NCBI RefSeq assembly: GCF_025370875.1
Contig: NZ_JAMXFD010000024.1
Location: forward strand, 1-64,000
DNA length: 64,000 nucleotides
Reading direction: 5' to 3'
Origin: Laspinema palackyanum D2c
GTDB taxonomy: Bacteria > Cyanobacteriota > Cyanobacteriia > Cyanobacteriales > Laspinemataceae
Under the pieces are notes generated by a model. The model saw only the letters and a list, made by a program, of their open reading frames with translations. It searched no databases and was not told the origin of the DNA. Positions 33,956-41,542 of this stretch are shown piece after piece (within the stretch, counting starts at the first letter, position 1; every line of letters begins with the position of its first letter). The position numbers and the translations under genes are program-made.

Positions 33956-35896
33956 ATGACCAGCAACTACAGCGCTGACCAAATACAAGTTCTTGAAGGA
34001 CTCGAAGCAGTACGCAAGCGACCGGGGATGTACATCGGGACCACCGGACCCCGAGGACTCCACCATCTAGTTTACGAGGTTGTGGACAACTCGATCGATG
34101 AGGCGCTTGCTGGCCACTGTACCCATATTGAAATCGAGTTTAACCCGGATGGCTCTTGTACCGTAACCGATGACGGTCGAGGCATTCCGACCGACGTCCA
34201 TTCTAAAACAGGGAGGTCCGCCCTGGAAACCGTCATGACTGTCCTCCACGCCGGAGGTAAATTTGGAGGGGGCGGTTATAAAGTCTCTGGAGGATTACAC
34301 GGGGTGGGTATCTCCGTGGTTAACGCCTTATCGGAATGGGTGGAAGTCACAGTTTGGCGGGAGAAAAAAGTCCATACCCAACGGTATGAACGGGGTGCAG
34401 CCATTGGAGAATTGGAAGCCAAACCGATTAAAGAAAATCGCACTGGAACCTCCGTTTGCTTTAAACCGGACCTGCAAATTTTCAGTACCGGCATTGAATT
34501 TGATTACAGCACTGTAGCAGGACGATTGCGCGAACTGGCCTACCTCAATGCTGGGGTTAAAATTACGTTTTCTGATAATCGGATTGACCTGCTCAAAAAT
34601 AATGAGCCCAGAGTTGAAACCTATTGTTATGAAGGGGGAATTCGGGAATATGTAGAATACATGAACCGAGACAAACAGCCCCTTCATGAAGAAATTATTT
34701 ACGTTGAAGGCGAACGTAATAATGTTCATGTGGAAGTCTCGTTGCAATGGTGCATCGATGCTTATACGGATAACGTTTTGGGATTTGCCAATAACATCCG
34801 GACCATTGATGGCGGAACGCACTTAGAAGGATTGAAAGCCGTTCTGACTCGGACGATGAATGCGATCGCTCGCAAACGGAATAAACTCAAAGAAGGAGAT
34901 TCCAACCTCGGCGGTGAGCATATTCGGGAAGGGTTAACGGCCGTGATTTCCGTGAAAGTGCCGGACCCAGAATTTGAAGGACAAACCAAGACTAAATTAG
35001 GCAATACCGAAGTCCGGGGAATTGTCGATTCTTTGGTGGGTGAAGTGCTCACCGAGTATTTAGAATTTCGCCCCAGTGTGGCGGATGCCATTTTAGAACG
35101 CGCCCTTCAAGCATTTAATGCCGCAGAAGCTGCCCGACGCGCCCGGGAATTGGTTCGCCGGAAATCGGTTTTAGAATCCTCTCCCTTGCCTGGAAAACTG
35201 GCGGATTGTAGTACCAAAGACCCCAGTGAAAGTGAAATCTACATTGTAGAAGGGGATAGTGCGGGAGGCAGTGCCAAACAAGGACGCGATCGCCGTTTCC
35301 AAGCCATCCTCCCCTTGCGCGGTAAAATCTTGAACATCGAAAAAACCGATGATGCCAAGATTTACAAAAATACCGAAATCCAAGCCTTAATCGCCGCCCT
35401 CGGTTTAGGGATTAAAGGGGAAGAGTTTGACTCCTCACAACTGCGCTATCATCGTATCATTATCATGACTGACGCTGATGTAGATGGGGCTCACATCCGC
35501 ACATTGCTCCTCACCTTCTTCTATCGCTATCAACGGGATATGGTGGATCAAGGGTATGTTTATATTGCTTGTCCGCCGCTGTATAAAGTAGAACGGGGCC
35601 GGAATCATTTCTACTGTTACAGCGATCGCGAACTGCAAAACCTAGTCCGCAACGAATTCCCCGCCAATGCCAACTACACGATTCAGCGGTTCAAAGGGTT
35701 GGGTGAAATGATGCCAACTCAACTCTGGGAAACGACGATGAATCCAGAAAGTCGCACCTTGAAGCGGGTGGAAATTGAGGATGCGGCAGAAGCCGATCGC
35801 GTGTTTACGGTGTTAATGGGCGATCGGGTTGCACCCCGTCGCGAATTCATCGAAACCTACGGTCCTCAACTCAAACTCATGGATCTGGATATTTAA
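33956..35896 (+). CDS. gyrB: DNA gyrase subunit B
   Basis: A 646-residue type IIA topoisomerase ATPase subunit. GHKL ATPase motifs are [24 protein letters not shown] and [15 protein letters not shown]. The TOPRIM domain has EGDSAGG (432-438) and DADVDG (506-511). The C-terminal region [20 protein letters not shown] is typical. With GyrA it introduces negative supercoils in an ATP-dependent way. The length is that of ordinary GyrB without insertion. It is monocistronic with an upstream AT-rich promoter region. Confidence 0.98.
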
Positions 35897-36038: not shown

Positions 36039-36992
36039 TTGAATATCAGGAATTGTCCGTTGAAATTGTTAGGGTTTGAAGATTATCAGCCGATCGCCGC
36101 GATCGCCGTTACGCCTTCTGGAGTCAAACGATTACTCTCTCTGGTTGATGAAGCGGGGAAATTTACCATTAGTGTATGTAGTGGACATCAAGGGGGTGCT
36201 GACTCCCTAACTCAGGCAGTCGCCGCTCAAATCGGTGCAACCCCCGTCCTCACCGGCGCATCCTCGGCGTTGAAATTGCCCGGAATTGATGTGCTAGGCG
36301 TACCCTTTGGCTGGAACCGAGGGGAGGGTCAGTGGACTGCTGTCAGTGCGGCGATCGCCCGGAAGGAACCCGTAGAAGTCATCCAAGAAGTGGGTTGCAC
36401 CCTCTGGCAAGAGAATTTACCCGAAAATCATCCATTCATCCTAGAATTGCAGGATGATCCAAAACCCGCCAAGGCAAGAGTCTGGATTAGTGCTATGCAA
36501 CGCCAATTTGCACCAAATTCAGAATTTCCCAAGGTGCAGTGGCATCCGCGAGTCTTGTGGGTGGGAGTGGGTTGCGAACGAGGAACCTCGCGGCAGGTGG
36601 TGGAAACGGCGATCGCTCAAGTTTGTCAGTCTCGTCATTTCGCACAAGGGGCGATTGCCGGAATTGCTACAATTGATAGTAAAGCCGATGAAGTGGGATT
36701 ATTAGAGTTGTGCGAGGCGCGTCAGTGGCCCTTGAAAACCTTTCCCTCAGAGGTTTTGAAGTCGGTTACAGTTCCCACCCCGTCAACGGTGGTGGCACAG
36801 AAAATCGGCACTCCCAGCGTGGCAGAAGCAGCGGCGATCGTGGCCGCACAAGGGTGGACCTCCTCGGGGGAAACGCGCAATTCTCTGCTCGTTCCTAAGC
36901 AAATTTTTCGATTAGAGGGGGAACCGGGTGCCGTGACGGTGGCGATCGCGCAAGCCGAGCAAGAATATACAGGACGTGAGGGAAAACAGTGA
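36039..36992 (+). CDS. cbiG: CbiG-type cobalt-precorrin-5A hydrolase, apparently shortened
   Basis: A 317-residue protein. The CbiG signature is clear: SVCSGHQGGADSLTQAVAAQ, GATPVLTGASSALKLPGIDV, LGVPFGWNRGEGQW, then the C-terminal domain VGVGCERGTSRQVVE, GIATIDSKADEVGLLELC and GTPSVAEAAAI. CbiG opens the lactone ring of cobalt-precorrin-5A in anaerobic-type cobalamin synthesis. The N-terminus (PIAAIAVTPSGVKRLLSL) jumps directly to VDEAGKFTISV, whereas family members usually carry about 80 residues between these points (CbiG_N). The frequent cyanobacterial C-terminal CobJ fusion is also absent. The start (TTG 36039) is weak. Confidence 0.8.
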   Translation: MNIRNCPLKLLGFEDYQPIAAIAVTPSGVKRLLSLVDEAGKFTISVCSGHQGGADSLTQAVAAQIGATPVLTGASSALKLPGIDVLGVPFGWNRGEGQWTAVSAAIARKEPVEVIQEVGCTLWQENLPENHPFILELQDDPKPAKARVWISAMQRQFAPNSEFPKVQWHPRVLWVGVGCERGTSRQVVETAIAQVCQSRHFAQGAIAGIATIDSKADEVGLLELCEARQWPLKTFPSEVLKSVTVPTPSTVVAQKIGTPSVAEAAAIVAAQGWTSSGETRNSLLVPKQIFRLEGEPGAVTVAIAQAEQEYTGREGKQ

Positions 36993-36993
36993 G

Positions 36994-37392
36994 TTAGGGA
37001 TGGGTTATCCCCTCTAGGGTTTCTTTCATCCCTTGACGCACTTGTTCAACAGTTAGTCCCAAGATTTGGGCCGTTTGCTCTACTGTAAATCCCCGGGATA
37101 GCAACTGCGGGACTACTTCACGTTTGCCTTCGAGCTTAATATCTTGATACAGTCTGGAGTGCTTGAATCCACTCACGTCTATCATCTGTTTTACCTCCTC
37201 GCTGCTGAATGAACGAAAACTTGTACAATACCACCGTCTCTATCAACTAAACAACTTCGGCGCGATCGGCTTCATCCGTCATTTCCTGCCTTGCCTGAAC
37301 CACAATCTGTCTGGCTTTTTCCGCAAGGCAGATAGCGGTTACCCGAGATTTCTGCAAACCAGTTCTGACCCCTGCTTCTTTAAAAGATAGCC
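36994..37392 (-). pseudogene. Chimeric remnant: DUF2887/Rpn-type C-terminus joined to a Uma2 fragment
   Basis: The minus strand matches the C-terminal half of the intact DUF2887 gene at 40.0-40.8 kb (AEKA.Q.VVQARQEMTD, EEVK.MI, SRLYQDIKLEGK, GFTVEQ.AQ.LGLTVEQVRQG). An in-frame TAG and a frameshift break it; only a 63-residue tail (36994-37185) is open. Upstream, 37328-37392 instead matches part of the Uma2 gene (41285-41348) with about six mismatches, in the same orientation. So two gene fragments have been fused. Confidence 0.8.
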
Positions 37393-37453: not shown

Positions 37454-37479
37454 TTGAGGGTTCTAACCTCGCTTGAAAC

Positions 37480-37869
37480 CTAGGTTTGTTGAATCCCTTG
37501 GCGCACTTGTTCAACAGTTAAACCCAGCATTTGCGCGATTTGCTCAACTGTAAATCCCTGTGACAGCAACGGCGGAACGACTTCGAGTTTGCCTTCGAGT
37601 TTGCCTTCGAGTCTGCCTTCAAGTTTGCCTTCGAGCTTAATATCTTGATACAGCCTGGATTGCTTGAATTCATTTACGCCTATCATCTCTTGTACCTCCT
37701 CGCGGCTTAATTTAGCAAATTTGTACAATACGACCGTCTCTATTAAGTCTACAACTTCTGCGCGTTTGATTAAGGGGGGCCAAGAGATTTTTGCAAGAGG
37801 TTTAATAACTTGTATGATGTTTATGTCACCTTCAATAGATTCCGAATTAACTGTTCCAGATGATACGGT
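37480..37869 (-). pseudogene. Second DUF2887/Rpn-type C-terminal fragment, 5' end replaced
   Basis: The frame is open from 37869 but has no standard start before TTG 37728. From RAEVV.LIETVVLYKFAKLS to the end it matches the intact copy at 40.0 kb. Upstream of that it reads VNSESIEGDINIIQVIKPL, unlike the intact copy, so the 5' end was exchanged. Four extra 12-bp repeats encoding LEGK/LEGR expand the middle (about 37583-37635). Probably a non-functional remnant, though a short product is possible. Confidence 0.65.
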
Positions 37870-37894
37870 TTAGATGAACTACAGCACAGCAAGA

Positions 37895-38425
37895 TTAGTT
37901 CTCCATGACGTATAGATATCCCTCTTTGTACTGCTTTTTAGAAGTCCTTATGTAGATAATTAAATAATTTCTTAATTCAAATACTTCTTTGATACCTGAA
38001 ACCAAATTGCTCGTGTCCTCCTTAAGGAAGTTATCGGCATTTATTTTGGAAAGACAACTGTTTAGATACTGAACCAAATCCTTTGTGAACTCATGAAATG
38101 CTTGGCTATCCTTTAATTTTTGGCTTTGACAATAGTAGACTTGACCAGATAGACTTTTAATGTGTGATTTTTGACTGGATTGCCGATCCAATTCCTTGAC
38201 TTCACCCTGAACCCTCTCCTCTTGATCCGGGTTAGCATCCTGAACTTCAGGAAGAAGCTGCTCAAGTAGTCCAGTTGTTTCAAATGATTGAATTAATTTC
38301 TCAAAAATTGTAACAATATCGGGAACGGATATTCCAATAGGTTTTTCTGCAAAACTCTCGCGATCATAGACAATATATTCACCCTCTTTTTTCAAATGAA
38401 GGGCAAAGTTAAGGGTGTATTTCAT
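37895..38425 (-). CDS. Hypothetical protein, third gene of an accessory operon
   Basis: A 176-residue protein: MKYTLNFALHLKKEGEYIVY, then a helical segment VPDIVTIFEKLIQSFETTGL, a charged linker with Gln/Glu, and a C-terminal part LRNYLIIYIRTSKKQYKEGY. No signal or membrane segment. It follows the preceding gene by five bases, so the two are translationally coupled. Composition is AT-rich. Family not recognised; the context (fragments of nucleases, a conflict-type HTH gene opposite) suggests an accessory or defence-related role. Confidence 0.7.
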   Translation of the reverse strand: MKYTLNFALHLKKEGEYIVYDRESFAEKPIGISVPDIVTIFEKLIQSFETTGLLEQLLPEVQDANPDQEERVQGEVKELDRQSSQKSHIKSLSGQVYYCQSQKLKDSQAFHEFTKDLVQYLNSCLSKINADNFLKEDTSNLVSGIKEVFELRNYLIIYIRTSKKQYKEGYLYVMEN

Positions 38426-38430
38426 AGGTT

Positions 38431-38640
38431 TTATGGGGTAACTTCCCGAGCAACTATCGTAATTTTAATGGAGTAGGAATCCACCGCTTCATAGGCTGTC
38501 CTGGCTACTGAACGGCATCGAATGATGATTTCTGTTGCATCCGGAACCGCTCGGAGTTGAGCGCCTACAATCTGATCTAGCATAGGGCGAGTCAAATGCC
38601 GATCTTTATACTCTAAGGCAATCTTCTGGTAGGCCATCAA
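38431..38640 (-). CDS. Hypothetical small protein, second gene of an accessory operon
   Basis: A 69-residue protein (MMAYQKIALEYKDRHLTRPM...). The C-terminal part AYEAVDSYSIKITIVAREVT looks like paired beta strands. Its start overlaps the stop of the upstream gene by four bases, and the next gene starts five bases after it. No family recognised. Confidence 0.65.
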   Translation of the reverse strand: MMAYQKIALEYKDRHLTRPMLDQIVGAQLRAVPDATEIIIRCRSVARTAYEAVDSYSIKITIVAREVTP

Positions 38641-38966
38641 TAATCCCCTGTTACCAAAATATTTCTAATTCGTGTGGCCACATTTTTTGCGCCTTTTTCC
38701 GTGGGAGCAATAATCCGAATGACGCAATCAATACCCCCATCTTTACCATACCGATTATCTATACTTTGGGGAGTCAGGGGAGTACCACCTACATCGGTGA
38801 ATTCAACCGTTTCAAATCGTTTGAGTCTCAGCATTAAGCGTTTGAGTTCGTCATGCTCAAATTTATACCCCATTTGACTAGGGGTTAATTTTTCTACGGG
38901 TTTGAACTGCGTGACATTAGAAAAATTAAAGAAGTTTTGGACCCATCCGACGATTAGATCAATCAT
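38637..38966 (-). CDS. Hypothetical protein, first gene of an accessory operon
   Basis: A 109-residue protein: MIDLIVGWVQNFFNFSNV, then SQMGYKFEHDELKRLMLRLK and a beta-rich DGGIDCVIRIIAPTEKGAKN, ending NILVTGDY. A hydrophobic start could be a weak anchor. It overlaps the second gene by four bases (ATGA). The divergent HTH gene at 39356 may share the 390-bp regulatory gap. No family recognised. Confidence 0.65.
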   Translation of the reverse strand: MIDLIVGWVQNFFNFSNVTQFKPVEKLTPSQMGYKFEHDELKRLMLRLKRFETVEFTDVGGTPLTPQSIDNRYGKDGGIDCVIRIIAPTEKGAKNVATRIRNILVTGDY

Positions 38967-39296
38967 AATGTTTTGCTCCTTGTGCCTGTTAATTCAGATT
39001 TTTGGCAAATTATGGCCCCTCACCCCTAGTCTTGCTCAGATCTGACCGTAGGACTGAGAATGCTCCCAAGGGTCAAGGCAGAGCGCGATCGCACACTATT
39101 GCAATCCCGAGAGTTCCTCCGTTTACGATTTGAGTCAAGGTAGCAAGCTTCACTGGCAAGCCCCTACACAAGCATTGCTCAAGCTCGGGCAGCGAGATCG
39201 CCTGCTCAATCCTTATTGTCTTCTGCTCCTTTTCCTTTAGACAAGTCGGAAAAGGACGGAAAAAGACGGCTCTTTTCTTAAAAAAATCTTAAAAGG

Positions 39297-39326
39297 GCGG
39301 ATAGTAGCGGATAATAGCGGATAGGG
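39297..39326. promoter_or_regulatory. Three direct 10-bp repeats (GCGGATARTA), possible operator
   Basis: GCGGATAGTA, GCGGATAATA and GCGGATAGGG lie in direct succession at 39297-39326, i.e. one per helical turn, 30 bases before the ATG at 39356. A looser direct repeat (GTCGGAAAAGG, ACGGAAAAAG, ACGG) precedes them at about 39245-39270. This is suggestive of a protein-binding array in the divergent regulatory region. The rest of 38967-39296 shows no gene. Confidence 0.5.
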
Positions 39327-39355
39327 AAGAATTTGGGAGGGTTGATCGCGGCACT

Positions 39356-39889
39356 ATGAACTGGCAATCGGTGTTGAAATCAATTGATGACTTAGTGTTT
39401 CAGCAAACGGGTAAACATCTTGATAATCTGCAAATGGCAATTTTGAAGGGCGTCTTTAATGGTGAGAAGTATGCAGACATTGCAGAACAGTATAAATGTA
39501 CGATGGGTCATGTCAAGGATGAGGGATACGAACTTTGGCAAATTTTGTCCCAGGTTTTAGGTGAGGAATTAAACAAATCAAATTTTTGCGCTACGATTGA
39601 ACGGTTGGGCTTTGTAAATTCTCAACATCAAATTATTGGTAATCCAGTCCAAATTGGTAACCTCAACCTTTGTGCTAATCCGGATAATTTGGAATTAAAC
39701 AAGAAAGAAGCGGTCAATCCTGACTCACATCGATATCCCACCCCAAATCACGAAAGCTCAAATCAAAATATCTTAGACCCTAGAATTCTAAAGACTATCT
39801 CCAAGTTCAATGAACTAGGGTTAACTCCCGAACAAATTGCAGAAACGATGGATTTACCATTATTTCAAGTCCTAGATTCCCTCAAATAA
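39356..39889 (+). CDS. HTH protein with vWA-MoxR-associated (conflict-system) type N-terminal domain
   Basis: A 177-residue protein. The N-terminus DLVFQQTGKHLDNLQMAILK, then YADIAEQYKCTMGHVKDEGY and ELWQILSQVLGEELNKSNF, is the helix-turn-helix module that starts many cyanobacterial NACHT/WD40/TPR conflict proteins and vWA-MoxR-associated proteins. Here it is not followed by an NTPase but by a polar linker and a second small HTH-like unit (ISKFNELGLTPEQIAETMDL). So it is a stand-alone version, perhaps a regulator or the remnant of a larger sensor. It is divergent from the three-gene operon. Confidence 0.75.
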   Translation: MNWQSVLKSIDDLVFQQTGKHLDNLQMAILKGVFNGEKYADIAEQYKCTMGHVKDEGYELWQILSQVLGEELNKSNFCATIERLGFVNSQHQIIGNPVQIGNLNLCANPDNLELNKKEAVNPDSHRYPTPNHESSNQNILDPRILKTISKFNELGLTPEQIAETMDLPLFQVLDSLK

Positions 39890-40041
39890 AGAAAAATTAA
39901 TTTTAGTTTAAATCAATTTCTTTGAACCAATTTAATGATTTTGATTGATTTACCCCCTGATTCCACTATTCTGGGTAAAAAAATACTGGAGTAGAGTCAA
40001 TCACCCTACCCCAGATTAAAATAGGTTAACCCTTAGCAAAC

Positions 40042-40836
40042 CTAGGTTTGTTGAATCCCTTGGCGCACTTGTTCAACGGTTAAACCCAGCATTTGCGCGA
40101 TTTGCTCAACTGTAAATCCCTGTGACAGCAACGGCGGAACCACTTCGAGTTTGCCTTCGAGCTTAATATCTTGATACAGCCTGGATTGCTTGAATTCATT
40201 CACGCCTATCATCTCTTTTACCTCCTCGCGGCTTAATTTAGAAAACTTGTACAATACGACCGTCTCTATTAATTCTACAACTTCTGAGCGTTTGGCGTCA
40301 TCGGTCATTTCCTGCCTTGCCTGAACCACTAGCTGTTTGGCTTTTTCCGCTGCACTGGCGTTTTGCTTCTCAATGATTAACTGGACAATCTGCATTCCTA
40401 ACGAGGTTTCTGGGACCTCTTCCAACTCGTCCAGATAGATGCGCTGAACTTGATTGGAATTTAGGAGTGCTTGATAGGGTACGAGTTCCTTCGGTTCATA
40501 ACTGCGTCGGCCAAAAATAACCACGGTTCGCCAGTTTTGAGCGGGATTGTTTTGATGCAGGTAGAGAAAGAGTTCGGCAAACAAATTGGCATAAAATCTT
40601 TTGTCGCTGTAAAATTGTACCTCCACCAAATTCAGCGGCATTTCGGGAAACTCGGCTTTGGGGATAAACAACCCATCAATCCGAAAAGCCGTTTGTTTGA
40701 GTTCCACGGAGGAAAATTCATAAGCCTCTGCTTCGGAGGCTGGACGACCAATCACTTCAAAGAAGCAACTGGGTTGTTGTTTAAACAGTCGGTAAAATAT
40801 GGGGTCTGTTTCCATGTCAGAAAGAGTAGATGGCAC
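40042..40836 (-). CDS. DUF2887 / Rpn-family nuclease-like protein
   Basis: A 264-residue protein. N-terminal PD-(D/E)XK-like core: DPIFYRLFKQQPSCFFEVIG, FRIDGLF (Asp54) and VEVQF (Glu72-x-Gln74). C-terminal part: EEVKEMIG, SRLYQDIKLEGK and an HTH-like GFTVEQIAQMLGLTVEQVRQ. The family is annotated as Rpn recombination-promoting nuclease/putative transposase and is expanded in cyanobacteria. It is the only intact copy among three in 4 kb; the other two are broken. Confidence 0.88.
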   Translation of the reverse strand: MPSTLSDMETDPIFYRLFKQQPSCFFEVIGRPASEAEAYEFSSVELKQTAFRIDGLFIPKAEFPEMPLNLVEVQFYSDKRFYANLFAELFLYLHQNNPAQNWRTVVIFGRRSYEPKELVPYQALLNSNQVQRIYLDELEEVPETSLGMQIVQLIIEKQNASAAEKAKQLVVQARQEMTDDAKRSEVVELIETVVLYKFSKLSREEVKEMIGVNEFKQSRLYQDIKLEGKLEVVPPLLSQGFTVEQIAQMLGLTVEQVRQGIQQT

Positions 40837-40963: not shown

Positions 40964-41542
40964 TTAAGCGCCAATGTTTCCTGCGGCTAATACTTCGTTA
41001 ACGGTTAGGGTTAATTCAGGAAACACTTGAGAGACTAGGGTTTGACTTGCGGTTAATATGGTTTCTTCATAAAATCCTTCTTCTAGGCGCAAGACGGATA
41101 GTTTATTGAGGATAGGGTCTACAATCCAATATTCGGGGATGTCGGCGGCTGCATATTCCGATCGCTTATATCGATAGTCCCGATTAATCGATTCAGGGCT
41201 GACCACTTCTATCACTAATAAAGGTGGGGTCTGGAAAACAGCGGATTTGTCCAACAAGTCTATGGCTTGTTCTTGTAAGACTACGCAGATATCGGTTACG
41301 CGAGATTTCTGCAATCCGGTTCTGACTCCTGCTTCTTTAAAACATAGCCCCGGTAATTTTTTTCGAGTAATTTCCACTTTTAAGCTATCCCGAATAAAAT
41401 CAGCAATCAGCAAATGTCTGATAGTTGGTGGATTCATGATTTCTAATTTCCCATTGACTAATTCATAGCGGTTATCGGTTCCATCATCATACTGTAGATA
41501 GTCTTCAAAGCTGCATAATTTATCGGTGACTATAGCATTCAT
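40964..41542 (-). CDS. Uma2-family (DUF820) PD-(D/E)XK endonuclease-like protein
   Basis: A 192-residue protein: FEDYLQYDDGTDNRYELVNG (Glu27), RVTDICVV (Asp84), LLVIEVVSPES (Glu112), DYRYKRSEYAAADIPEYWIV and DP. These are the hallmark of the Uma2 fold, hugely expanded in cyanobacteria with unknown role. Monocistronic. Part of this gene is duplicated in the chimeric remnant at 37.3 kb. The gene-free stretch 41543-41943 downstream on the plus strand shows only HIP1 sites. Confidence 0.92.
   Translation of the reverse strand: MNAIVTDKLCSFEDYLQYDDGTDNRYELVNGKLEIMNPPTIRHLLIADFIRDSLKVEITRKKLPGLCFKEAGVRTGLQKSRVTDICVVLQEQAIDLLDKSAVFQTPPLLVIEVVSPESINRDYRYKRSEYAAADIPEYWIVDPILNKLSVLRLEEGFYEETILTASQTLVSQVFPELTLTVNEVLAAGNIGA

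Follow-up and report, generated by a model that had tools for sequence, protein, structure and literature searches.

A conserved three-gene operon opposite an HTH regulator gene in Laspinema palackyanum D2c: a candidate conflict cassette with operator-like repeats

Genes and repeats at the locus

We analyzed a 64,000-nucleotide stretch (the window) of the 7.03-Mb genome of L. palackyanum D2c, in which three genes, here called A, B and C, are transcribed away from a gene for an HTH protein, P0004. The features are listed below.

36994–37185: second free-standing Rpn 3' end, with an AGGAGG-ATG start
37476–37768, minus strand: left direct repeat, a free-standing rpn 3' end
37480–37728, minus strand: RpnS-like ORF in the left repeat, 82 aa, with KLEG/RLEG four-residue repeats and an AGGAGG-ATG start at 37686
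37895–38425, minus strand: gene C, 176 aa, fast-evolving and mostly replaced in the genome G002
38431–38640, minus strand: gene B, 69 aa from TTG or 68 aa from the ATG at 38637
38637–38966, minus strand: gene A, 109 aa, a conserved alpha/beta protein without known relatives
39244–39272, no strand: repeat cluster 1, operator-like, units like AAAAGGACGG, coordinates by eye
39291–39325, no strand: repeat cluster 2, operator-like, units like ATAATAGCGG with a 10-bp period
39356–39889, plus strand: HTH gene, a divergent regulator gene, encoding P0004 (177 aa)
40038–40294, minus strand: right direct repeat, the 3' end of the full rpn gene, 95–98% identical to the left copy in ungapped blocks
40042–40836, minus strand: DUF2887/Rpn family nuclease gene, 264 aa, with an internal AGGAGG-ATG start at 40212
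40964–41542, minus strand: Uma2 family gene, 192 aa

A sequence-only reading had proposed three open reading frames of 109, 69 and 176 codons opposite an HTH gene, and all four were recovered at the proposed positions. The spacing of 5 bp between B and C was as read. The other junction had been given as an ATGA overlap, which is inexact: A and B join at TGATG, where the TGA stop of A and the ATG of B (38637) have one base in common, and a GGGGA run precedes this junction. The starts of the HTH gene and A are separated by 389 bp. The surrounding nuclease genes and remnants that had been noted were also present, namely the DUF2887/Rpn gene, the Uma2 gene and the two free-standing Rpn 3' ends.

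The product of 40042–40836 matched the Rpn model TIGR01784 (E 4.9e-33). As predicted from its sequence, the gene has the RpnL/RpnS layout, in which a nuclease-family gene contains an internally started C-terminal part. Rpn genes have been reported as toxin-antitoxin and phage-defence genes, and RpnS tails, which carry four-residue repeats, as antitoxins (PMC10327210).

The near-identical rpn 3' ends form direct repeats that flank the cassette in the window. Gene A was absent from the other genomes of the genus that were searched (G001 and G004–G007). In four of these (G004, G005, G006 and G007), the syntenic gyrB-cbiG // DUF2887-Uma2-glgP locus was present without the stretch of approximately 37770–39970; the G001 contig ends too early for the site to be read. 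In G002, the cassette is on the opposite side of the rpn gene, and thus its flanks are not fixed.

The window cbiG (36039–36992), at 317 aa, is short, with the C-terminal half and some of the N-terminus missing; it is a fused ORF of 654 and 639 aa in loci L009 and L010, and short or split in G004 and G005. An intein-like insert was seen by eye in gyrB of G002, G003 and G004 (L009 8786–10894; L112 3210–6803), and there was none in gyrB of the window (33956–35896, 646 aa) or G007. In the cassette-free G005, four inserted genes separate gyrB from cbiG (L115 788–7399), and one of their proteins begins, by eye, with a MoxR-like P-loop motif.

In five of seven loci, a Uma2 gene was located no more than 1.1 kb from the cassette or from a lone B or B remnant. 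The expectation from Uma2 density is 2–5% per locus (P 1e-6), for a pattern noticed first and tested afterwards. As these genomes contain 39–97 Uma2 copies each and Rpn genes are likewise abundant, we gave the island context little weight. An estimate of HTH adjacency, which assumes 12 copies per 7 Mb, was left out of the evidence.

Conservation and distribution of A, B and C

Seven genomes belonging to five cyanobacterial families share A-B-C in one and the same order (the window genome, G003, G002, G331, G290, G442 and G437), and A occurred only together with B and C. A pattern scan for A over 84,980 species genomes, which demands exact short peptides, returned four loci: Oscillatoria sp. 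HE19RPO 124 (G003) and Laspinema olomoucense D3b (G002), both of the same genus as the window, a Thermosynechococcaceae MAG (G331) and Planktothrix rubescens PCC 7821 (G290). The scan missed G442 and G437. In whole-genome searches, A was detected in 3 of 59 genomes, including that of the window, and in 3 of 358 phylum-wide. C was present in the same 3 of 358, its remaining matches being at E 0.004 or worse. B was detected in 4 of 386 phylum-wide genomes (E < 1e-20), 8 of 388 genomes of the order and 1 of 10 Planktothrix genomes. We dropped one match to A in G216 (E 9.6e-4, 30% identity, within a large ORF) and set aside matches to B at E 0.005–0.09 and to C at E 0.004–0.009 as chance.

We calculated dN/dS among the three congeners. 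The values were 0.11–0.19 for A, 0.08–0.12 for B, 0.28–0.39 for C and 0.16–0.23 for the HTH gene, B being the most conserved member of the operon. These ratios rule out chance ORFs and pseudogenes. Because the order recurs in seven genomes and dN/dS is low among the three congeners, A-B-C goes beyond chance and is, judged from its sequence, a real operon under purifying selection. The sequence-only reading had proposed gene-neighborhood conservation as a check, and the recurrence bears it out.

C behaves differently from its partners. Between the window and G002, DNA identity is 87–89% for A, B and the HTH gene (dS 0.36–0.47) versus 63% for C (dS 1.1), and the identity of C drops at approximately 38300–38350. 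Past the drop, the G002 and window C proteins share 48% identity, as do those of the window and G442. Since the G002 C is no closer to the window C than the G442 C is, most of C was swapped in one lineage, with its partners retained. Between the window and G003, dS is 0.08 for B and 0.38 for A; local recombination is perhaps responsible for the low value.

T, a protein of 67 aa with two hydrophobic spans, has its gene between those for A and the HTH protein in G003 and G442 (L009 4399–4602 and L073 6909–7112; 38 of 67 residues identical), and tblastn did not find it in other cassette copies. The window lacks the 288-bp piece that holds T in L009, and thus T was probably lost there. One T protein matched DrpB in NCBIfam at E 0.035. 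Downstream of the G290 copy (L015 9170–11576) are small gene pairs that by eye look like HicAB- and RelBE-type toxin-antitoxin genes, with IS200/IS605-like genes beside them. G452 (L074 3730–6721) has no A in its genome and keeps B and C in a decaying cassette, in which transposase-like genes separate B from C and also directly precede B. A lone B homolog of 64 aa, without A or C, is present in G159 (L035 5319–5513), 218 bp from a Uma2 gene.

Profile searches had also been proposed as a check. In the libraries used, A, B and C had no match to a structural or phage family: matches in Pfam, NCBIfam and PHROGs were at chance level. PADLOC-DB 2.0.0 gave no family at E ≤ 1 for A, B, C or the HTH protein of the window and no defence-model match for C of G290, G331 and G437. 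A sequence search of the PDB with the operon proteins returned nothing convincing, the profiles of A and B did not match each other, and we recognized neither a toxin nor a nuclease motif in the three proteins.

Several candidate relatives were rejected. SpoVS, considered for B, gave no match. For A (model pLDDT 65), the best Foldseek E was 0.56 and VIA Z was at most 4.8. For C (model pLDDT 79), the best Foldseek E was 1.2 against the PDB and 0.045 against viral structures, and VIA Z was at most 6.2, among unrelated helical rows; none was accepted as a relative. Plain phage genes were ruled out by the viral scans and, for A and C, by searches of phage records.

Chance retention of cargo or a remnant from a phage or other mobile element would explain the insertion between direct repeats, the empty site and the IS200/IS605-like genes that, by eye, adjoin the G290 copy. 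However, pattern scans found no relatives in IMG/VR viral contigs, A and C had none in INPHARED phage records, and the plasmid set returned a single B match at E 0.9. The cassette also contains no integrase and its genes are under purifying selection. We regard this explanation as very unlikely.

The divergent regulator and the repeats before its gene

P0004 consists of a sigma70-region-4-like HTH and an Rpn-like C-terminal helix-turn-helix motif. It gave weak sigma70-type matches in Pfam and NCBIfam and none to NB-ARC or TIGR01784. A relative in locus L076 matched sigma70-ECF at 1.3e-4, and its C-terminus matched TIGR01784 at E 6.8e-5, with 22.8 bits, which is under the curated cut-off of 52.1. 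A profile of the C-termini of HTH-only proteins (n = 11) aligned with a profile of Rpn tails (n = 9, from Laspinema-group loci) at an hhalign probability of 94% (P 1.2e-7). The match score was 34.7; column shuffles gave at most 18.0, and none of 200 reached it. The P0004-type tail and the Rpn tail, a short helix-turn-helix motif, thus likely, though not certainly, share ancestry.

The HTH of P0004 aligns over its full length with those of the paralog L004 and the G290 protein (36–41% identity overall). It is of a type that we take to be a head module of vWA-MoxR-associated conflict proteins. That this HTH normally heads larger conflict proteins, as the sequence-only reading had it, held for one NTPase protein of the same genome, but no Pfam or NCBIfam model corresponding to the vWA-MoxR-associated label was matched. 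P0004 had been described as lacking an NTPase, and it indeed has no NB-ARC match, the paralog in the same genome being an HTH followed by NB-ARC. Calling it a stand-alone HTH was incomplete, as the Rpn-like motif is also present. By this architecture, P0004 is more than a truncated conflict protein.

An HTH-family gene is divergent from A in all five intact copies where one was seen. In the window, G003, G002 and G442, the last from another family, the product is HTH-only (176–177 aa). The G290 counterpart is an HTH-NB-ARC protein of 470 aa, with NB-ARC matched. No HTH-family gene was found in the 6.7 kb readable upstream of A-B-C in G331 (8–9 kb readable overall), and the G437 contig stops 121 bp past A. 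The gene is 85–86% identical in the three species and its second motif is conserved, which rules out a mere relic. Relatives were present in all 11 genomes searched, with 5–44 matches per genome. In G008 (L076 2797–4502), the divergent neighbors of an HTH-only gene encode a protein with an NYN nuclease domain (Pfam E 8e-21) and an 88-aa protein of no known family. HTH-only genes may sit next to varied partners.

Direct repeats spaced at 10 bp, in helical phase, were apparent upstream of HTH-family genes, and we analyzed these upstream regions for periodicity. Seventy HMM matches gave 37 regions after repeats of the same protein were dropped; matches with a late profile start, no start codon or less than 250 bp of upstream sequence were not used. 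The best self-match at lag 10 averaged 19.6 of 30 in the 37 regions, compared with 12.4–14.9 at lags 5–9 and 11–19 and 17.4 at lag 20, a multiple of 10. In 149 control upstreams, lag 10 gave 13.0. By dinucleotide shuffling, 25 of 37 HTH-family regions reached p ≤ 0.01 versus 5 of 139 controls (Fisher p 1e-16), as did 15 of 21 when counted by protein cluster; these controls were genes of at least 150 aa in the fetched loci. Of the five control positives, one is the coding sequence that precedes a C gene and another is a simple tandem repeat. The five A-B-C-adjacent regions all reached p ≤ 0.01 (window, G002, G003 and G442, 0 of 300 shuffles; G290, 2 of 300). The 12 HTH-family regions that missed this level include those of the HTH-only L046 and L054.

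The repeat unit is approximately WAAWGTCGGA and mostly starts 60–80 bp before the ATG in 24 regions, the 13 low-scoring regions of the 37 being excluded from the consensus. In these 24 regions, the unit and the recognition helix covary, with confounding by relatedness (Mantel r 0.31, 0 of 2000 permutations): GHVKD is paired with TCGG/GCGG, DHVRK with GTGGGA/GGGGGA and SYIRD (G290) with TTAGA. As related proteins have common motifs, this covariation is supportive only. Among three sister genomes, windows over the repeat stretch are 91–95% identical, comparable with well-conserved coding parts. The repeats adjoin the HTH gene and, in the window, are at least about 280 bp from the start of A. These patterns support the HTH family as putatively DNA-binding and self-regulating, and P0004 probably binds the phased repeats. 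Its control of A-B-C, at which the divergent layout hints, would go one step further.

The architecture of P0004 and the autoregulation-type repeats at its promoter also fit a toxin-antitoxin addiction module, in which P0004 would be antitoxin and autorepressor, the toxin would be A, B, C or the neighboring Rpn nuclease, and the module would keep its own island without a defence role. The antitoxin activity reported for RpnS tails (PMC10327210) points the same way, as does the rpn gene adjoining the cassette in Laspinema. However, no rpn gene was noticed beside the G442 and G290 cassettes, the G290 regulator is an NB-ARC protein, and the likeness of the tails is a short motif under the curated cut-off of the Rpn model. 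Toxin-antitoxin genes usually share one operon, unlike the HTH gene, which is transcribed away from A-B-C. On balance, an addiction module seems rather unlikely.

An ordinary stress-response or physiological operon, under a sigma4-like or STAND transcription regulator and with no role in conflict, would account for the strong purifying selection on A and B and for the absence of a recognized toxin or nuclease motif. A regulator of this type, combining sigma70-r4 with NB-ARC, is also described in cyanobacteria (PMC11119718). The very patchy spread, the lateral-type insertion with empty sites, the replacement of C and the insertion-element decay in G452 fit a dispensable accessory module better. 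We thus consider an ordinary operon unlikely.

A proposed repressor-controlled conflict cassette and known systems

The explanation that we prefer, tentatively, is that the HTH gene and A-B-C, joined in some copies by T, a small protein of membrane type, form a laterally moving, repressor-controlled conflict cassette in which C is the diversifying part. We favor it because the A-B-C order is fixed in seven genomes of five families and A occurs only with B and C, because an HTH-family gene is divergent in every intact copy where one was seen, and because the phased repeats (25 of 37 versus 5 of 139) mark all five A-B-C-linked regions and covary with the helix. The replacement of C in G002 with A, B and the HTH gene kept, the empty site in four genomes of the genus together with the flanking direct repeats, and the Rpn, Uma2 or toxin-antitoxin-like genes near the copies are further reasons. 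The conflict half of this reading, a possible defence or toxin role, is suggested by the rarity of the cassette, the exchange of C, the island context and the kinship of the regulator. Against it, the three operon proteins matched no defence model and cannot be given an activity. G331 carries A-B-C with no HTH-family gene in the 6.7 kb upstream, the repeats lie near the HTH gene and some 280 bp or more from A, and 12 of 37 upstream regions are non-significant.

Under such a conflict cassette, the regulator would sit on the phased repeats, repress its own gene and hold the divergent operon low until invasion or stress lifted the repression. A and B would form a conserved core, and C a diversifying partner setting the target or the effect, the outcome being harm to the invader or the infected cell. 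The cassette would be gained and lost by recombination, in the window between the rpn 3' ends. A bolder version, which we consider quite unlikely, makes A-B-C(-T) an undescribed cyanobacterial phage-defence system with C as an exchangeable specificity or effector subunit. A novel HTH-Rpn-tail regulator would couple it to the neighboring Rpn nuclease, and an invader would titrate the regulator off the phased 10-bp operators, releasing both cassette and nuclease.

In the open-access literature searched, we found neither the operon nor the repeats nor the HTH-Rpn-tail protein described. Three protein families without a detectable relative, in a selected and mobile cassette, imply a function awaiting discovery. 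The phased-repeat finding reaches past this cassette to a multi-copy HTH family that includes NB-ARC proteins, a class linked elsewhere to immunity and cell death, and predicts that the HTH of this family acts as a self-controlling domain that binds DNA. The HTH-Rpn-tail architecture hints at a tie between such regulators and Rpn toxin-antitoxin genes.

With the vWA-MoxR-VMAP systems (PMC7159879), the likeness is thematic only, both being conflict cassettes with a diversifying component. No vWA, MoxR or VMAP gene was present among the window ORFs at 34–44 kb and their Pfam matches, and none was seen by eye in the ORF lists beside the other copies. B was compared with Alba (PDB 2bky), a comparison chosen in advance. 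The ungapped alignment covers 29 residues, at the KP / EIVIKARGRA region of Alba, but with an hhalign probability of only 2% (P 0.024), B being shorter (68 versus 97 aa) and none of nine B proteins having an Alba match in Pfam.

The neighboring DUF2887 gene matches the Rpn model, and the P0004 tail resembles the Rpn tail. The free-standing 3' ends in the window are like RpnS (PMC10327210) in their four-residue repeats and AGGAGG-ATG start. However, in the searches made A, B and C were unrelated to Rpn, and P0004 has an additional HTH. With the cyanobacterial HTH-NB-ARC (STAND) proteins, P0004 has in common the N-terminal HTH and the phased promoter repeats; these proteins carry an NTPase, whereas P0004 has the Rpn-like C-terminal motif instead.
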